Below, one piece after another: positions 51,588-60,565 of a stretch of DNA of 64,000 bases. The notes under the pieces were generated by a model. It was given only the letters and a program-made list of their open reading frames with translations, had not been told where the DNA came from and did not search any database. The position numbers and the translations under genes are program-made. The DNA comes from an uncultured Turicimonas sp. (GTDB lineage Bacteria > Pseudomonadota > Gammaproteobacteria > Burkholderiales > Burkholderiaceae_F): contig CANTYJ010000027.1 in the NCBI GenBank assembly GCA_947854175.1, positions 1-64,000 on the forward strand, given 5' to 3'. The stretch's first letter is position 1; each line of letters starts with the position of its first letter.

Positions 51588-54002
51588 GTGATTTCGAACA
51601 AAAAAACTCAGACCAAAAAAGCACCGGCCAAGGGCACAGCTACTAAGAAAGCGGCACCGAAGAAAAGTTCGGGGTTGTTCTCATTTATAAAGATATCACT
51701 CGCAACCATTATTGCTTTGGTTCTCGGTGGTATCGGAATTGCCCTGTTTGTTTTTGCTCTTGTTTACTCTCAACTGCCTCCGATTGACACAGTCGTTGAC
51801 TACAAACCAAAAGTTCCAATGCGTGTCTGGACAGCCGATGGCAAGCTCATAGCTGAATTCGGAGAAGAACGTCGAGATTTTGTCACGATCGATGAAATGC
51901 CGGCTCATGTCAAACAAGCGGTTATTTCAGCTGAAGATGACGGCTTCTATCAGCACCATGGTATTGAACCGAAAGGCTTTGTTCGTGCAGCTCTAGCCAA
52001 TTTTGCCTCGGGAAAAAGAAGCCAGGGTGCTTCTACGATCACGATGCAAGTTGCCAGAAACTTCTTCCTTTCCAGTGAAAGAAGTTACGTCAGAAAACTT
52101 TATGAAGTTGCGATGGCGTTTAAGATTGAAGCAAATCTAACCAAAGATCAGATTCTTCAAATTTATATGAATCAGATCTTTCTCGGCAACCGTGCCTATG
52201 GATTTGCAGCTGCAGGAAGAACATATTACGGTAAGAACATCCAGCAGTTAAGCGTCGGAGAAGCTGCAACATTGGCCGGACTCCCGGCTGCTCCTTCTGT
52301 CTACAACCCCTTTGCCAGTCCCCAAAGAGCTAAAGTCAGACGTGACTATGTTCTAGGTCGTATGAGAGATCTCGGCTACATTGATGAAAAACAGTACCTG
52401 ACTGAAGTCAATGCCCCGATCCAAACCAGGTTGACCAGACAAGCAGAATCCTCCGTGACTCCGACAAAGATGAATTCTTCGCTACATGCGGAATATGTGG
52501 CTGAGCTGGTTCGAACTTTAATGTTTGATGTATTCCAGCAAGAAACCTACACCAGAGGACTTAACGTTTATACAACCATCAACTCTGAAGATCAAAACTA
52601 TGCTTACCGCTCTTTGAGAAGTCATGTTCAAAGTTATGACCGCTCACGAGGCTATAGAGGACCGGAAGATAAAGTTGATTTATCTGATCCGGCAACAGAA
52701 CAACAAAACATTAGAAATGCTTTGCGGGAAGCTTTGATCGCCAGTGATATGCCGGCTGTTGTTGTCCTGAAGGCATCACCTTCTGAAGTTGTGGTTCAAA
52801 ATGCATCAGGAAAGCAAATTACGATTAAAGGAAAGAATCTGGACTTTGTGAAAAAAGCCCTTCAGCCCAAAGCCAAAGAAGATTTAAAAATCCAACGCGG
52901 CTCAGTTGTCCGTATTCAATCCGGTAAGAACAATGAGTGGGAAATCACTCAAATACCTCAGGTAGAAGCAGCCTTTATTGCGACAAATTATGCGACCGGT
53001 GCAATTCAGGCATTAGTTGGCGGATATGACTTTAATTTAAATAAATTCAATCACGTTACTCAAGCCTGGAGACAACCAGGATCCTCTTTCAAACCATTTA
53101 TTTACTCAGCCGCAATCGAGAAAGGATTTTCACCGCAAACTGTGATTAATGATGCTCCTATTGTGTTGGATCCGTCTGAAACCGGCTTCAAGAAATGGAA
53201 TCCGAAGAACTTCTCCAGAACGTTCAACGGACCAACTATGATGAGAGATGCCCTGAGGAAATCTCTAAACCTGGTTTCTATAAGAATTCTACAAGCTATC
53301 ACACCAAGATATGCGGTTGATTTTATCCAACGTTTTGGTTTCGAGCCCGATAAGCATCCGCCTCATTTGTCCTTGGCTCTCGGAGCCGGTAGCGTAACGC
53401 CATGGGAAATGGTCAGAGGATTCTCTGTCTTTGCCAATGTCGGTAAACGGACTGAACCCTATCTCATCTCTAAAGTGACCGATCAGAACGGGAAGATTCT
53501 GATGCAATCGGCAGTCGAAGCAGAGCATATCGCCGGTGTTGAGGCAGTCGACCCGAGAAATGCATTTATCATGCATAAAATGCTCCATGGAGTTGCTACT
53601 TCCGGTACGGCTGCCCGTTCGACAGCAACACTTAAACGAGGTGATATTGGTGGAAAGACCGGAACCAGCAACGATTCATTTGATGTCTGGTTTGTCGGAT
53701 ACGCCGGGCCTCAGCTGGCAGCGGTATGGCTCGGTTATGATCAACCCAGAACAATGGGTAGACGGGCCCAAGGCGCGAGCTTGGCGTTGCCGGTCTGGAT
53801 TGATTATATGAAGTTTGCCGTGAAAAATGAGCCTGAAGTTGTCCGCCAAGCTCCTCCTGGAGTGACAGTGGACGGCCCCAACTATTACTACACGGACCGA
53901 CAGAATGCTATTACCTCACTCGGTGTGGATGAACCTCCACAATCGGCTGATCCGTTGGGTGATTTGATCCAGAACACCAATATCAGAGGGCAGATATTTT
54001 AA
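51588..54002 (+). CDS. mrcA: Penicillin-binding protein 1A (GTG start at 51588 proposed; ORF open from 51555)
   Basis: Transglycosylase EDDGFYQHHG, RSQGASTITMQVARN; transpeptidase GSSFKPF, KTGTSND. Confidence 0.95.
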   Translation: MISNKKTQTKKAPAKGTATKKAAPKKSSGLFSFIKISLATIIALVLGGIGIALFVFALVYSQLPPIDTVVDYKPKVPMRVWTADGKLIAEFGEERRDFVTIDEMPAHVKQAVISAEDDGFYQHHGIEPKGFVRAALANFASGKRSQGASTITMQVARNFFLSSERSYVRKLYEVAMAFKIEANLTKDQILQIYMNQIFLGNRAYGFAAAGRTYYGKNIQQLSVGEAATLAGLPAAPSVYNPFASPQRAKVRRDYVLGRMRDLGYIDEKQYLTEVNAPIQTRLTRQAESSVTPTKMNSSLHAEYVAELVRTLMFDVFQQETYTRGLNVYTTINSEDQNYAYRSLRSHVQSYDRSRGYRGPEDKVDLSDPATEQQNIRNALREALIASDMPAVVVLKASPSEVVVQNASGKQITIKGKNLDFVKKALQPKAKEDLKIQRGSVVRIQSGKNNEWEITQIPQVEAAFIATNYATGAIQALVGGYDFNLNKFNHVTQAWRQPGSSFKPFIYSAAIEKGFSPQTVINDAPIVLDPSETGFKKWNPKNFSRTFNGPTMMRDALRKSLNLVSIRILQAITPRYAVDFIQRFGFEPDKHPPHLSLALGAGSVTPWEMVRGFSVFANVGKRTEPYLISKVTDQNGKILMQSAVEAEHIAGVEAVDPRNAFIMHKMLHGVATSGTAARSTATLKRGDIGGKTGTSNDSFDVWFVGYAGPQLAAVWLGYDQPRTMGRRAQGASLALPVWIDYMKFAVKNEPEVVRQAPPGVTVDGPNYYYTDRQNAITSLGVDEPPQSADPLGDLIQNTNIRGQIF

Positions 54003-54015
54003 CAAAATGTAAAAG

Positions 54016-54062
54016 TTGACTAATGATATTGATAATCGTTATCAATTAGTTTATAGTTTGAA
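54016..54062 (+). promoter_or_regulatory. Fur box 1 overlapping sigma70-like promoter
   Basis: TGATAATCGTTATCA (54030-54044; 14/15 to 7-1-7 Fur motif TGATAATNATTATCA); TTGATA (54029-54034)-N17-TATAGT (54052-54057). Confidence 0.85.
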
Positions 54063-54192
54063 CCATCGGATCTTAATTGATCCACTCCTTGAAGAGAGAC
54101 TTCTCTTAAATGGTAGTTAGTTAATGGGGATTGCCTAAAAATTTCAGGCTTAAACCGCAAGTTAAAAAAGAGACTTGCGGTTTTTCTTTTTT
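54063..54192 (+). ncRNA. Predicted iron-regulated sRNA, copy 1
   Basis: Fur-box promoter; hairpin GGATC-TTAATT-GATCC; unpaired CTCCTTG; hairpin AAGAGA-GACT-TCTCTT; conserved AATGGTAGTTAGTTAATGGGGAT; GCCT/AGGC hairpin; terminator CCGCAAGT-N10-ACTTGCGG + TTTTTCTTTTTT. Confidence 0.82.
54153..54192 (+). terminator. Intrinsic terminator of sRNA copy 1
   Basis: AACCGCAAGT-TAAAAAAGAG-ACTTGCGGTT + U-rich tail. Confidence 0.85.
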
Positions 54193-54236: not shown

Positions 54237-54273
54237 TGTAATGATAATCATTATCAATTTGTTTACAATTACA
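54237..54273 (+). promoter_or_regulatory. Fur box 2 overlapping sigma70-like promoter
   Basis: TGATAATCATTATCA (54242-54256; 15/15 to 7-1-7 motif); ATGATA (54241-54246)-N17-TACAAT (54264-54269). Confidence 0.87.
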
Positions 54274-54399
54274 ATCATTGAATCAGCAATGATTCGCTCC
54301 TTGAAGAGGGAAACCTCGAATGGTAGTTAGTTAATGGGGATAGCCTAACAAATAAGGCATTTTTAACCGCAGGAATCTTGAGCGACCTGCGGTTTTTTC
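54274..54399 (+). ncRNA. Predicted iron-regulated sRNA, copy 2
   Basis: Same architecture as copy 1: hairpin AATCATTG-AATCAG-CAATGATT; CTCCTTGA; GAGG-GAAA-CCTC; identical AATGGTAGTTAGTTAATGGGGAT; GCCT/AGGC; terminator AACCGCAGG-N12-CCTGCGGTT + TTTT. Confidence 0.83.
54365..54399 (+). terminator. Intrinsic terminator of sRNA copy 2
   Basis: AACCGCAGG-AATCTTGAGCGA-CCTGCGGTTTTTT. Confidence 0.85.
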
Positions 54400-54558
54400 T
54401 TGCTCCTTCCGGTTGTTGGCTTGGTCATTTCACTTCAAATGCTATCCATAACAGATGACAGTTTCTACGAAAACTTAAGTAGTGTAAAGAATGCTGCCTT
54501 GAAACCATTTTTGTTAAATACATGGAAAACCCAATGGAAATGCAAAAAAACCTTAGAT

Positions 54559-54602: not shown

Positions 54603-55406
54603 ATGAGACAAATCGTTTTTGGCCAGCAATGGATTCATTCTGAAGAACCTCCTGAAATCCAGGAAATTTTTCTTTCACACGGTAAAAAAAGAAAAATAAA
54701 ACGCGGTGAAGAGCTGAAACATGGCGGTCCCTATGGAGAGATCGGACTGCTTTTAAAAGGTCTGGTTTTTTATCGCTTTTGGGATTGGAATGATAAAGAA
54801 CATATCTTTAGTCTGATTATCCCGAAAAGATGTTTTGGCGATATCGACGCTGCATCGTGCACTGTAGCGAACGTCAGTGCTTATGCCGCCAAAGATGGTG
54901 AAGCTTTATTCTTAACATACGATGAGTGGCACAAGTTGATTACAGCTGACATAAAAACTTTCGAGCTTTTTTCTTCGAGAGCTGTCAAGAAACAAGAAAG
55001 CCACATAGAAGCGCTTTTGGCTTGTTTTACCATGGAAGTTGATATGCGTCTAATCTGTTTTTTCCATGCTCTCGTAAAGGCTTACTACGTTCCTAAATTA
55101 AACGAGTGGAATCCCATTCCCGTACAACTCAATACTGTAATGCTCTCTAAAATCGTATCTTCGAGCAGAACCTCTGTTTCTTTAAAACTAACAGAATGGA
55201 TTGATAGAGGCTTGGCAAAAAAGGACGGAAAATTCTTATTACTTCACGGAAAACTTTTCGAAGAGGTCTATGACTGGTGGGAAAACAAAAAGGATTCATC
55301 CAAAGCTCCTCATTCTCAACCAGAACTGAACCACTCTTTTAACCACAGGTTCTGGCCAATTCCACCTGCAAAAATTAACGAACCGGAAGACAGCCGCGAA
55401 CAATAA
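54603..55406 (+). CDS. Crp/Fnr-family transcriptional regulator without an FNR-type N-terminal cysteine cluster
   Basis: cNMP-like beta-roll (GEIGLLLKGLVFYRF...HIFSLIIPKRCFGDID), C-terminal HTH (LNTVMLSKIVSSSRTSVSLKLTEWIDRGLAKKDGKFLLL). Confidence 0.82.
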   Translation: MRQIVFGQQWIHSEEPPEIQEIFLSHGKKRKIKRGEELKHGGPYGEIGLLLKGLVFYRFWDWNDKEHIFSLIIPKRCFGDIDAASCTVANVSAYAAKDGEALFLTYDEWHKLITADIKTFELFSSRAVKKQESHIEALLACFTMEVDMRLICFFHALVKAYYVPKLNEWNPIPVQLNTVMLSKIVSSSRTSVSLKLTEWIDRGLAKKDGKFLLLHGKLFEEVYDWWENKKDSSKAPHSQPELNHSFNHRFWPIPPAKINEPEDSREQ

Positions 55407-55457: not shown

Positions 55458-56235
55458 CTATTTCCCTGTGCTTTCCGCTGTCTCTATGCATTTAGCGACA
55501 GCTTTTAAAGCCGGGTTATTCTCCGGTAGTTCAAGAAGCGAACGGCCTTCCAAATCAAACTGTTCCACCTGTTTGTCGTAAGGCACGGAACCTATCACAT
55601 GGATATGTTCTTTTTCAGCGAATTCTTTGAGAGCTGAAACATCGGATTGGGCACGATTAAATACCACACCTAAATTCTTGCAAGCCGGAACCAGTCCTTC
55701 ATCAACCATCTTCTTGATATGACGGACCGTCTGAAGTCCTCTGAAAGAAGTATCCGTAATTAGAATCAATGTATCAATTTTTTCAATGACCTGACGGTTG
55801 ATTTGTTCAAGACCGGCTTCTCCGTCAATTAAAACGATTTCAAATGAATGCATGATATTTTCAATAGCATTCTTAAGAAGATCATTGATAGAGCAAAAAC
55901 AACCGATAGTGTTCATCCGGCCCATCGCCAGAAATGAAAAATTATCTTTTTCGTCTAAAGCCTGAGCCGTCAGGTACTCGACACTATCAGCAAGTTCCGT
56001 TAATTCATTTTTAGTGCTCTTCTCTGCTTTTTGGAGAACCATTTCGCGGATAGAACCAATGGTGGTTTCACTTTCGCGGCCGATCGCATAATTCAAACCA
56101 AGTGCCGGGTCTGCATCAACAACCAAAAGCTTTCCCGGAGCTTTTTCCATCAAAACTTTGGTCAGCATTGCCGTAAAAGCCGTTTTACCAACACCGCCTT
56201 TACCACAAACAGCAATTACTTTTTGTTCACTCATT
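55458..56235 (-). CDS. CooC-like nickel/Fe-S accessory ATPase (start placed at MSEQKVIAVCGKGGVGKT)
   Basis: Deviant Walker A CGKGGVGKTAF; LLVVDADPALGLNYAIG; CxC in NTIGCFCSINDLL; MinD/ParA-like. Confidence 0.83.
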
Positions 56236-56952
56236 TTTGTTCTCTTGCTCCTGATGTTTATGCACAAGGATACGATCTATTTTCTTGATATTTGCACAGA
56301 GTTTTTTGTCGGCACATTTTCCGCAATGCCCGATGACATGACAGTCTTTAAAGTTATACCCACGTTTATCCCAGACTTGTGCCTTCAATGCTTCCTGCTC
56401 TTTGCTCCAGGCTTCTGACGTTTCTTTCACGATATCGAAAGCTCGGCCTTCGACAGTAATAAAAAGAACTTGAACGGTTTCTAACTCGTCATATTCTTCC
56501 CGGAGGCGGAAAAGAAGAGCTGAGCCTAAAACAGAAAGATTCAGTCCCTCTGCGATACTGTCAACTGAAAAACGAAGCCAGATCTTATTACCGGATCCTT
56601 TGACCATCACTCCTCTAACCTGTAGTTCCCGCTTTAAATTTTGAATAATCAAATAAAGCAGCTCGTCGGTCACTCTTTGACCTGAGATATTTAACTGCAA
56701 AGCCAAAGGTTGAGAGCCCGGTAATTCGTTGATATCAGGACCGATAAGATATACGCCATTTGGAAAAATTGACGTTTCCCGGGAAAAGCTAAGGTAAGAG
56801 CGATTTGGATTCTCTCCAAGATCAACTGCCGTATTTGTCTTTAATACAAAGTTGGACTTCGTTTTTAAAGATTCAACAAATTCAGAGCTCAACGATTCTG
56901 ATACATCAGTTGCCAGAGCCAATAGCTCGTCCCAGGTAACGTTTTTTGTCAT
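56227..56952 (-). CDS. Conserved-type hypothetical protein with C-terminal four-cysteine cluster
   Basis: CHVIGHCGKCADKKLC (C-x5-C-x2-C-x5-C), probable Fe-S or metal site; overlaps CooC-like gene. Confidence 0.7.
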   Translation of the reverse strand: MTKNVTWDELLALATDVSESLSSEFVESLKTKSNFVLKTNTAVDLGENPNRSYLSFSRETSIFPNGVYLIGPDINELPGSQPLALQLNISGQRVTDELLYLIIQNLKRELQVRGVMVKGSGNKIWLRFSVDSIAEGLNLSVLGSALLFRLREEYDELETVQVLFITVEGRAFDIVKETSEAWSKEQEALKAQVWDKRGYNFKDCHVIGHCGKCADKKLCANIKKIDRILVHKHQEQENKNE

Positions 56953-56955
56953 TTC

Positions 56956-57765
56956 TTAAGCCTCTTTATGTGCTTTTTCTTTTGCAAACAAAGCTGCGCC
57001 TAAAGCACCGGCTAGTTGAGGATCTCCCTCAAGCTGGCCAAGCTTCATTTTCAGGCGTTTTTCCAAAGCTTTTTGAAGAGCTTTGTTTTGAGCACAGCCT
57101 CCTGTCAAAACCACTTCTTCTTCAATTCCGACTTTAAATGCCATTCCATGAATCCTTCTGGCAATAGACTCATGGATTCCGGCACAAATATCAGGCAAAG
57201 GAACATCATTGTTCAAAAGAGAAATGACTTCGGATTCAGCAAAGACGCTGCACTGCTTGGAGATAGAACAAGGTTTAGAGGATTTCAGAGCTTCGGAAGC
57301 TAAATCTTCAAGGCTAAGGTCAAGCACCCTGCTCATCACTTCAAAGAACCTTCCTGTCCCCGCCGAACATTTATCATTCATCTGAAAGTCCAGGACCCGG
57401 CCATTTTCATCAACAGAAATAACCTTACAGTCCTGACCTCCGATATCAATAATAGTTCGTGTTGAAGGACGAAGATAGGTAGCTCCTCTGGCGTGACAAG
57501 AGATTTCGGAGACCTCTTCATTGACGTTTTCCACAGCACCTCTGCCATAGCCGGTTGTCACAATGAAGACATTGTTCGGCAGACCGGTCTCAGGATTAAC
57601 ATCTGTGATTCCAGCCTTCTCCAAAGCAATCTGGAAGGCGTGCTCCATCGTTTTTTTGGGTCCTCTTGCAGAGCGGACTATAGAGGAGCCGAGAATCTTT
57701 TCAGATTCATCCATGATTACTACTTTTCCGGTCGTCGAGCCTAAGTCACATCCAACATATAACAT
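56956..57765 (-). CDS. 2-hydroxyacyl-CoA dehydratase/benzoyl-CoA reductase activator ATPase (HgdC/BadF/BcrA family)
   Basis: GCDLGSTTGKVVIMD; DIGGQDCKVI; NDKCSAGTGRFFEVM; KQCSVFAESEVISLLN. Confidence 0.93.
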   Translation of the reverse strand: MLYVGCDLGSTTGKVVIMDESEKILGSSIVRSARGPKKTMEHAFQIALEKAGITDVNPETGLPNNVFIVTTGYGRGAVENVNEEVSEISCHARGATYLRPSTRTIIDIGGQDCKVISVDENGRVLDFQMNDKCSAGTGRFFEVMSRVLDLSLEDLASEALKSSKPCSISKQCSVFAESEVISLLNNDVPLPDICAGIHESIARRIHGMAFKVGIEEEVVLTGGCAQNKALQKALEKRLKMKLGQLEGDPQLAGALGAALFAKEKAHKEA

Positions 57766-57784
57766 GTCCTATCTCCCTTCTTTA

Positions 57785-59095
57785 TTATTTTTTGATTTTT
57801 TCAAATCCATTTGCACTCAGGAAATTAGATATGTCATTTTTGACTTTATCCATCGGTGTATATCTTTCATCAAACAAGCTGGTTGTCAAAGTGCAAAGAG
57901 GAACTTTCATGTCTTTGCAGACCTTCTTCATAAACTGATTGATACCGGCTTGGTCTTTATGCCCCATGTGGCCTGAGAATAAGACGGCGTCGATGTTGTA
58001 GTCCTGAATTGCCTGTGTCAAGTCTTCAATAACAACATCAACCCAACCTCTGCCCTGACGAATCATCGGGACTTCAGCAACATTTCTTCTGGCCAAACCG
58101 AAAAGCATGCTTTCTTCAGTCGATGTGTCAATCGGAGTATACGGTGACAAGCCCTGGAAGGAGTTAACAACAACGGCGCCCCATTCTTCAGCTAACCAGT
58201 TTCCAAGTTTCTCTCCCCAAAGAGGATTCAAGTCGGGCCAGAACAGACGAATCTTTTCATTCATAACCGGTCCAACGCCTTTTTCAACGTTGGCTTTAGC
58301 AACGTCACGGACCGCTGCCATCACGGCGGTTGCTCTCGGGTCACCGGCAGGCAAATGCTGAGTCAAAGCCCAGAAAACGTCGCCGATAACGAAAGAAGGC
58401 ATCGGTGCAGGAGAAGCTTTCATTAAGTCATTAACTTCAGCCCAAATTTCATACTGTTTATTTGTTTCTTCAACAACAGCCTTTACTTTTTCAAATTCGT
58501 ATTTAGCGCCGGTATGTTTTTCAATAAAAGGAATCATTTCCTTTAATTGCTTAGCAACGTATTCAAAATCTTTGTCTTCATGACCATAACTTGGATCGAT
58601 GGTGTAAGACGGAACATCCTTTAAGAATTCTGAACGTGCAAAAGCCTGGTGCAACATCAATTGACCGTCACAGGGTTCGGCCATCACAATGAAGCAATCC
58701 GGTTTCGGATGCAGCCTGTTTTCCATTGAATAAACGGCATATCTGACCAGAGAGCACATCTTATTGTCGAGATTGAACTTATCGCATTCTTTTGCGTCGG
58801 CATAATCTGTCAAACCAAGATGGAACATTAAATCAAACACCGGGTTGTAATAAACAATACCCATGCCGGCGAAAATTTCCTGGCTGTTGCCATACCAGGT
58901 GCATAACAACGGTTTCTTGTTTTCGGATGCATCGATCATCTTTTCATTATGATCTTTCATCAAAGACACAACAGCGATCTGCACCGGGTTCTTTTTATCT
59001 TCAGGCAATGTATCGAAAAACTTCAATACACCGTCAAGTCTGTCTCTATATTCTTTGGTTCTTTCGACACCGGTAAGTTGTGATAAATCTGCCAT
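57785..59095 (-). CDS. 2-hydroxyacyl-CoA dehydratase family subunit (HgdB/BcrC-like)
   Basis: GMGIVYYNPVFDLMFH, AEPCDGQLMLH, DAVLFSGHMGHKDQAGINQFMKK; operon with activator. Confidence 0.88.
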   Translation of the reverse strand: MADLSQLTGVERTKEYRDRLDGVLKFFDTLPEDKKNPVQIAVVSLMKDHNEKMIDASENKKPLLCTWYGNSQEIFAGMGIVYYNPVFDLMFHLGLTDYADAKECDKFNLDNKMCSLVRYAVYSMENRLHPKPDCFIVMAEPCDGQLMLHQAFARSEFLKDVPSYTIDPSYGHEDKDFEYVAKQLKEMIPFIEKHTGAKYEFEKVKAVVEETNKQYEIWAEVNDLMKASPAPMPSFVIGDVFWALTQHLPAGDPRATAVMAAVRDVAKANVEKGVGPVMNEKIRLFWPDLNPLWGEKLGNWLAEEWGAVVVNSFQGLSPYTPIDTSTEESMLFGLARRNVAEVPMIRQGRGWVDVVIEDLTQAIQDYNIDAVLFSGHMGHKDQAGINQFMKKVCKDMKVPLCTLTTSLFDERYTPMDKVKNDISNFLSANGFEKIKK

Positions 59096-59110
59096 AACTT
59101 TTCTCCTGGA

Positions 59111-60265
59111 TTAGATGTTCTTTTGAGCCTTCAGACTTTCTACAAAGGCCTGAGCGCGGGTGCGGATCTGTCCCTGAGAGTCAGGTACATAGTCGATTTC
59201 TAATTCAAGGCCCGGGATGCCTTTTTCAGCTAAATAGCTGCGCATAATATATTGTTCAAAAGCCCAAATATCGCACATGTAAATGCGTGAAGAAATAACA
59301 CCGTCAACCTTGAAATCATCAATCAACTGACCGAGACGATTGAGTCTGTCGTCTTGGGTACCCATTTGACGGGTAGCAGCCGGCATTTCATCAAAATAAT
59401 AATCAACGATAGCTTCAAGAGGGTCTTTGTTTTCATCGATCAGCACAGAGCATGAACGACTTCCGAAACCGAGATTATCTACGACAATTTCTCCGCCCTG
59501 ATTTTCGAGAATTTCAAAAAATTCTTTGCTGTCAGCATGACCGCCTGTGTAAAGAAGACGGACTTCCGGCTTAATCTTGGGACCCTGTTCTTTCAGCTCT
59601 TCAATAAGTTCCTTAAGAAGTTTGTTGTATTCTTCCAAAGGCATGGAGATTCCGGCAAGCATAATCATAATTAACTCGGAACCTCTGAGGTAAACAGATT
59701 CACCCTTTTGCATTTCATAAAGTTCGGCCTGCAGGCGTCTGGTCTCGTTATGAAGTTTGATAGCTTTTCTTAAGTCGTCATCTGTAATTTTTACACCGAA
59801 CTTCTTTTCGGTAGCCTCAATAAACTTCTTCATTTCTTCCTTATAGAAATCTTTAGCTAAATCGCCACGTTTCTTAGGAATGTACATAAAGTGGTATACA
59901 GGGTTTCCGGGAATTGTCAGCCAGTTATCATAAATTCTTCTGGCATGGTCGCAACTGTTATAAAACACTGCTCCGTCTAAGAATTCCAGTTCATCATTAA
60001 GAATCTGGTTGTAAGTATGACGAACGTAATTACAAGCCAATTCACGGAAATAAGCATCGGCGAATTCAGTTCCTTCAGATCCTGTTCCGCGGATGAAATA
60101 AGGAACAGCACCGGCGGCAGTCAAGATTTCAACCGGCATTTCCTGATACAGGAAACCAACAACCTTCTTTCCTTCTTCTTTGGCTTTTTCAATGGAAGGA
60201 TTATTTAATGAAGTCGCAGCTTGAATTAATGTGTTTAGAGCTTTTGGTCTATCTGCAATTTGCAT
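59111..60265 (-). CDS. 2-hydroxyacyl-CoA dehydratase family subunit (HgdB/BcrB-like)
   Basis: VVGFLYQEMPVEILTAAGAVPYFIRG; FYNSCDHARRIYDNW; DNLGFGSRSCSV; SRIYMCDIWAFEQYIMR. Confidence 0.9.
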   Translation of the reverse strand: MQIADRPKALNTLIQAATSLNNPSIEKAKEEGKKVVGFLYQEMPVEILTAAGAVPYFIRGTGSEGTEFADAYFRELACNYVRHTYNQILNDELEFLDGAVFYNSCDHARRIYDNWLTIPGNPVYHFMYIPKKRGDLAKDFYKEEMKKFIEATEKKFGVKITDDDLRKAIKLHNETRRLQAELYEMQKGESVYLRGSELIMIMLAGISMPLEEYNKLLKELIEELKEQGPKIKPEVRLLYTGGHADSKEFFEILENQGGEIVVDNLGFGSRSCSVLIDENKDPLEAIVDYYFDEMPAATRQMGTQDDRLNRLGQLIDDFKVDGVISSRIYMCDIWAFEQYIMRSYLAEKGIPGLELEIDYVPDSQGQIRTRAQAFVESLKAQKNI

Positions 60266-60354
60266 TCATGCTCTCCTTGAGGTGGGGAAATAAATTTTAT
60301 TTTGTGGGTTCACCACGCATGAATACACTATAAATCTGGCGTATTTTTGACACT

Positions 60355-60439: not shown

Positions 60440-60565
60440 GGAATCTCTTCTCTTCAGATAAATTACCCAAAACCTCCCATTTTTCTGTTTTCCAGCTAAC
60501 ACAGTGCAACTATCAAGACGTTCAAAATTGAATCACTAACACTATAACTCTCAAGGAGATCCAGC

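Follow-up and report, generated by a model that had tools for sequence, protein, structure and literature searches.

Two tandem Fur-box RNA genes of Turicimonas as candidate iron-sparing regulators of anaerobic respiratory enzymes

Two tandem transcription units were located on the plus strand of a 64,000-nt stretch of DNA from an uncultured Turicimonas sp. (the window), in the interval between mrcA, which encodes PBP1A and has its 3' end at 54002, and a Crp-like gene (54603-55406). As read from the sequence, the locus comprises two conserved, structured RNA genes with Fur-box promoters, of a family that is absent from Rfam (Table 1). On balance we favour the reading that they encode sibling Fur-repressed and probably Hfq-dependent trans-acting small RNAs (sRNAs), which would spare iron through pairing of a conserved element B and sometimes also of an element A. 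They probably represent a new sRNA family with a RyhB/PrrF-like action on anaerobic respiratory enzymes. In the proposed mechanism, both RNAs (about 125 nt) would accumulate when iron is scarce and Fur leaves its operators. Element B (GGUAGUUAGUUAAUGGGGAU) would then base-pair with the 5' leaders of transcripts that encode haem, Fe-S and molybdenum enzymes of respiration, including those of the DMSO-reductase type, formate-dehydrogenase-like enzymes, NapC, NrfA-like cytochrome, pyruvate:ferredoxin oxidoreductase, cytochrome bd, hydrogenase and the double-cubane/dehydratase operon. On some targets, hairpin 2 would be looped out and element A (CUCCUUGA) would simultaneously pair with the Shine-Dalgarno sequence immediately 3' of the element B site. 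Such pairing, mainly by B and helped by A, would block ribosomes, repress iron-dependent respiratory enzymes and spare iron.

Table 1. Coordinates of the RNA genes, their elements and two predicted target sites in the window
Feature	Position	Strand	Basis or remark
Fur box, copy 1, GATATTGATAATCGTTATC	54025..54043	+	2 mismatches to GATAATGATAATCATTATC; 0.04 expected in window
sRNA gene, copy 1	54064..54190	+	start from -10 element, end from terminator (inferred); folding z = -3.9; homologues
Element A, copy 1, CTCCTTGA (anti-Shine-Dalgarno type)	54085..54092	+	invariant in 5 homologues; CUCC predicted to base-pair with GGuAG in element B
Element B, copy 1, GGTAGTTAGTTAATGGGGAT, main predicted seed	54112..54131	+	identical in the 4 Turicimonas copies; G005 lacks 4 nt; target enrichment
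Intrinsic terminator, copy 1, with U tract	54152..54190	+	12-bp stem; covaries among homologues
Fur box, copy 2, TGTAATGATAATCATTATC	54237..54255	+	2 mismatches to GATAATGATAATCATTATC
sRNA gene, copy 2	54276..54400	+	start from -10 element, end from terminator (inferred); RNA model match 54274-54401
Element A, copy 2, CTCCTTGA	54297..54304	+	sequence; homologue alignment
Element B, copy 2	54322..54341	+	sequence identity with copy 1; homologue alignment
Intrinsic terminator, copy 2	54366..54400	+	folding; stem covaries among homologues
Predicted composite target, leader of first dehydratase-type gene, UCCCCA-CC-UCAAGGAG	60273..60288	-	rank 4 of 770; co-fold rank 36 of 1558
Predicted composite target, porin leader, ACUAACACUAU-AACUC-UCAAGGAG	60535..60558	+	rank 25 of 770; co-fold rank 20 of 1558

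The Fur box of copy 1 overlaps the -35 element TTGATA (54029), with the -10 element TATAGT ending at 54057 (promoter scan, 10/12), and that of copy 2 lies directly 5' of a likely -10 element, TACAAT (54264-54269). Each short intergenic RNA gene thus possesses a Fur operator overlapping or abutting its promoter, the arrangement of a Fur-repressed sRNA. Both boxes agree with the consensus GATAATGATAATCATTATC at 17 of 19 positions. Scanning of 2.07 Mb of the genome yielded only four 19-mers with three or fewer mismatches, and the sRNA boxes are two of the top three. The best Fur-like 19-mer of the genome (one mismatch; C67:53417) precedes an ABC-transporter-like gene, and the same contig carries a TonB-receptor-like gene, which favours reading the motif as a Fur box in this genome. 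Boxes of the Fur type were weaker in the relatives described below, with 5-6 mismatches in T. muris and 5 in G005. The genome contains a single fur gene and a single hfq gene, and the presence of hfq together with U-tract terminator ends suggests that both RNAs depend on Hfq. The RyhB-like logic of iron starvation put forward in the original prediction is supported computationally by the Fur boxes, the terminators, the hfq and fur genes, covariation and target enrichment.

The positions first reported for the octamer CTCCTTGA and for the 23-mer AATGGTAGTTAGTTAATGGGGAT (54109-54131 and 54319-54341) were confirmed, as was the identity of the 23-mer between the two copies; with up to three mismatches allowed, the 23-mer occurs at these two sites only in the genome. 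Both elements are also conserved in a second species, T. muris YL45 (Sutterellaceae), which possesses two sRNA copies, and in G005, a genome of another genus of the family. The T. muris copies read GTGGGTAGTTAGTTAATGGGGAT, which shortens the invariant 23-nt element to a core of 20 nt, GGTAGTTAGTTAATGGGGAT. Octamer and core are identical in the four copies of the two Turicimonas species. The fifth homologue, in G005 (RNA model E = 6e-7), displays a Fur-like box, the octamer and GGTAGT----AAATGGGGAT, with a 4-nt deletion in element B. In an alignment of the five homologues whose register was set by hand, hairpins 1, 2 and 3 and the terminator covary, 11 of the 20 pairs carrying changes in both partners and 99 of 100 cells being paired. 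Considering that these surrounding hairpins carry compensatory changes while elements A and B hardly vary, the conservation of the elements is not due to chance.

The layout of Fur-type box, element A, element B, covarying hairpins and terminator is common to T. muris (twice) and G005, and it bears on another reading, in which the repeats are the untranslated 3' end of mrcA or a gene for a very short peptide and no trans-acting sRNA exists. Copy 1 indeed starts about 60 nt past the mrcA stop codon, and AUG GUA GUU AGU UAA is readable in the two copies of the window; however, T. muris (GTGGGTAG) and G005 lack this AUG, and one copy in T. muris is flanked by MFS genes while that of G005 adjoins a parC-like gene, both equipped with a Fur-type box and a terminator of their own. 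The peptide was rejected because its start codon is not conserved, and the reading as a whole appears extremely improbable. At the T. muris locus L001:59-2947, the sRNA copy is flanked by two paralogous genes for MFS transporters on the minus strand, which apparently arose by tandem duplication around the sRNA or beside it, and the contig continues with the neighbours known from the window, Crp-like and CooC-like genes. The other T. muris copy, on the mrcA side (L003:1588-1706), runs directly into sequence resembling the 5' end of a group II intron, after which the contig stops; this stretch gave no Rfam match at the gathering score.

Searches of 67 genomes of the family and 398 of the order gave no further homologue. 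Matches of the RNA model in other genera (L184-L191, L194) turned out on reading to be bare terminators, and an order-level pattern match (G308) was ascribed to chance from the matched string alone. Neither sRNA gene of the window matched an Rfam family at the gathering score, the RyhB, PrrF, NrrF and HrrF families gave no covariance-model match, and a relaxed Rfam search (E up to 10) returned chance matches only, with no iron sRNA among them. The sRNA family is apparently undescribed.

The two elements had been presented as unpaired, which the predicted structures did not bear out for element A. In the minimum-free-energy structures, ACUCC of A pairs with GGuAGU of B in three of the four Turicimonas copies (both of the window and the mrcA copy of T. 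muris), a pairing that is possible in all five homologues; for the second copy of T. muris, the predicted partner of A within B is UUAAUGGGG. The probability that the element A 8-mer is fully open is only 0.001-0.006. The stretch UUAGUUAAUG is predicted to be fairly open in copy 2 and partly paired in copy 1. The free RNA may hide both seeds in each other; since the A–B pairs do not vary, covariation neither supports nor refutes them.

The original prediction took the anti-Shine-Dalgarno octamer as the main seed while doubting its specificity, and the doubt was justified. The pattern TCAAGGAG-N3-11-ATG gave 31 matches (about 29 distinct start sites) genome-wide versus 9 for the reversed pattern, and the element A octamer alone is unspecific. 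Element A could nevertheless be the working seed of a Fur-regulated sRNA, mimicking the 16S anti-Shine-Dalgarno sequence (CUCCUU) and shutting off a few UCAAGGAG leaders, those of flavocytochromes, the dehydratase and the porin. Such a role would suit the invariance of the octamer in five homologues, the conservation of the frdA and dehydratase octamers in T. muris, and the share of exported flavocytochrome-type FAD proteins among genes with a CAAGGAG Shine-Dalgarno sequence, 17 of 42 versus 4 of 106 other AAGGAG genes (Fisher p = 8e-8). The same tendency was seen in T. muris, where 6 of 29 octamer sites precede flavocytochrome-type FAD genes. On the other side, the CUCC is predicted to be buried, the octamer contains the generic Shine-Dalgarno core, and the same CAAGGAG–flavoprotein link (24 of 73 FAD genes) is seen in the control genus g6, in which no sRNA homologue was detected. 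The link was therefore dropped as proof of targeting by A, being a family-wide property and no evidence for the sRNA, unless an RNA with that seed has gone unrecognised in g6. We regard element A as an unlikely sole seed. Genes of the flavocytochrome-type FAD_binding_2 family are present in about 48 copies in the Turicimonas genome studied here, 60 in T. muris (G001) and 73 in G006, and CAAGGAG is overrepresented among their Shine-Dalgarno sequences both in genera where an sRNA homologue was detected and in those where none was. In the comparison of target leaders with T. muris, which covered a few genes, the frdA leader kept both sites, AUCCC and UUCAAGGAG, having diverged elsewhere along its length.

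Element B appears to be the better seed and to carry the target signal. The search for targets covered 2.07 of the 2.45 Mb and used crude gene calls. In an accessibility-weighted helix scan of 1558 leaders most top predictions ran through element B, above all UUAAUGGGGA. Iron proteins were defined by CxxCH, 4Fe-4S motifs or the molybdopterin family (60 genes). Element B retrieved 10 of them in its top 50 (mean in dinucleotide shuffles, 2.8) and 14 in its top 100 (mean 5.4), counts reached by 0 of 1300 shuffles in either case, an enrichment to be read as exploratory because a first inspection of the matches preceded the choice of this class. The best matches are long and perfect, such as UUCCCAUUAACU and AUUAACUAACUA. 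Predicted targets with a family match are a DmsA-type reductase and two formate-dehydrogenase/thiosulfate-reductase-like enzymes; NapC/TorC-type and NrfA-like c552 cytochromes; the pyruvate:ferredoxin oxidoreductase gamma subunit, the [NiFe] hydrogenase small subunit and a NapG-type 4Fe-4S ferredoxin; and CcmH, DcuC and a porin with a 12-bp match, where several family matches fell below curated cut-offs and the subfamily names are approximate. These data also weigh on the possibility of a Fur-regulated sRNA of another kind, one that binds a protein, acts as a sponge or controls a few iron-unrelated mRNAs, with the enrichment arising from C-rich unstructured leaders. Controls with shuffled B likewise favour iron genes (3.4 of the top 20, where 0.8 would be expected from 60 of 1558), but element B surpasses every composition-preserving shuffle and does so with long perfect matches, and we hold such an RNA to be improbable.

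Pairing through element B may be complemented by element A. In several leaders a B site lies directly upstream of an A site, an order that lets one sRNA bind both with hairpin 2 looped out; the composite reads UUCCCAUU-CU-UCAAGGAGU in the DmsA-type leader and AACUGACUAUC-UC-UCAAGGAG in the Fdh/Phs-like leader. The top 20 composite A+B sites included 8 iron genes versus 3.3 in B shuffles, none of 700 being as high, and many of these 8 are named respiratory metalloenzymes; cydB ranked 21 of 770. At lenient thresholds, composite sites were no commoner than with shuffled B, and full co-folding of 1558 leaders gave 6 iron genes in the top 20 versus 3.4, with 3 of 32 controls as high. It is conceivable, and we propose it tentatively, that A (anti-Shine-Dalgarno) and B (the G-rich leader arm) form a two-part seed, mutually paired in the free RNA and opening together on sites of the UUCCCAUU-2 nt-UCAAGGAG type with hairpin 2 looped out, which would silence anaerobic respiratory reductases in iron starvation.

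By its predicted action, the Turicimonas pair would work like RyhB, PrrF or IsrR, and by sequence it is a member of none of them. PrrF1 and PrrF2 of Pseudomonas aeruginosa are tandem siblings, 95% alike, each with its own Fur site and terminator; they are induced by iron limitation and lower iron-containing proteins (PMC4211561). The Turicimonas genes share the tandem arrangement with a Fur site and terminator each, whereas they are clearly less alike than 95%, belong to another order, occupy another genomic place and gave no Rfam match, hence no detectable homology; elements A and B are not described for PrrF. RyhB of Escherichia coli resembles them in Fur control and in the proposed repression of Fe-S and haem enzymes (PMC4211561, PMC7377471), and differs in that no Rfam match was obtained and that the targets predicted in Turicimonas are anaerobic respiratory reductases. 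BrrF of Burkholderia cenocepacia, from the same bacterial order, is induced by low iron and acts on central metabolism; its gene lacks a separate Fur box and has a constant position 3' of hemP (PMC7377471), in contrast to the Turicimonas-type genes, which have their own Fur boxes and sit at mrcA, between MFS genes or beside a parC-like gene. The Fur-regulated IsrR of Staphylococcus aureus pairs with ribosome-binding sites through three C-rich regions, and its targets include FdhA, NarG and NasD, of anaerobic nitrate respiration and formate dehydrogenase (PMC11257911). The Turicimonas RNAs resemble it in their predicted Fur regulation and in their predicted targets in anaerobic respiration and formate dehydrogenase; the Gram-positive host and the three C-rich regions set IsrR apart, as does the lack of a described G-rich seed like element B, and no homology was detected. 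A literature search found no Fur-controlled sRNA for Sutterellaceae, gut bacteria whose genomes contain dozens of flavocytochromes and Fe-S/Mo reductases. If the proposal is true, it would add a further independent invention of iron sparing by sRNA, aimed at anaerobic respiration and not mainly at the aerobic TCA cycle. Because T. muris YL45 has the same RNA pair, the predictions are directly testable.

Two targets had been named beforehand, the first gene of the dehydratase operon and a porin, and TCAAGGAG is present at both start sites. Target prediction ranked both leaders high, in the top 2.5% of 1558 by co-folding, although the iron enrichment by that measure was modest. The dehydratase gene is a good candidate, because UCCCCA precedes the octamer at a distance of two bases and T. 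muris retains this octamer in the syntenic location, whereas the porin was weaker in the helix scan. In T. muris, about 10 nt separate TCAAGGAGAGCGTCAATG from the place where the dehydratase gene is expected to start, the synteny being based on the orthologous Crp-like and CooC-like genes of a contig with one sRNA copy. As to the porin, the T. muris sequence next to the dehydratase start yielded no TCAAGGAG site. The dehydratase operon itself (55458-60265, minus strand) encodes two HGD-D proteins, a BcrAD/BadFG activator ATPase, a small CdhC-like protein of the acetyl-CoA synthase/CODH beta type and a CooC/MinD-like NTPase. The first HGD-D protein best matched the NCBIfam double-cubane reductase, at 204 bits and below the 350-bit cut-off. 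The operon is an unusual Fe-S gene set adjoining the Fur-box sRNA genes.
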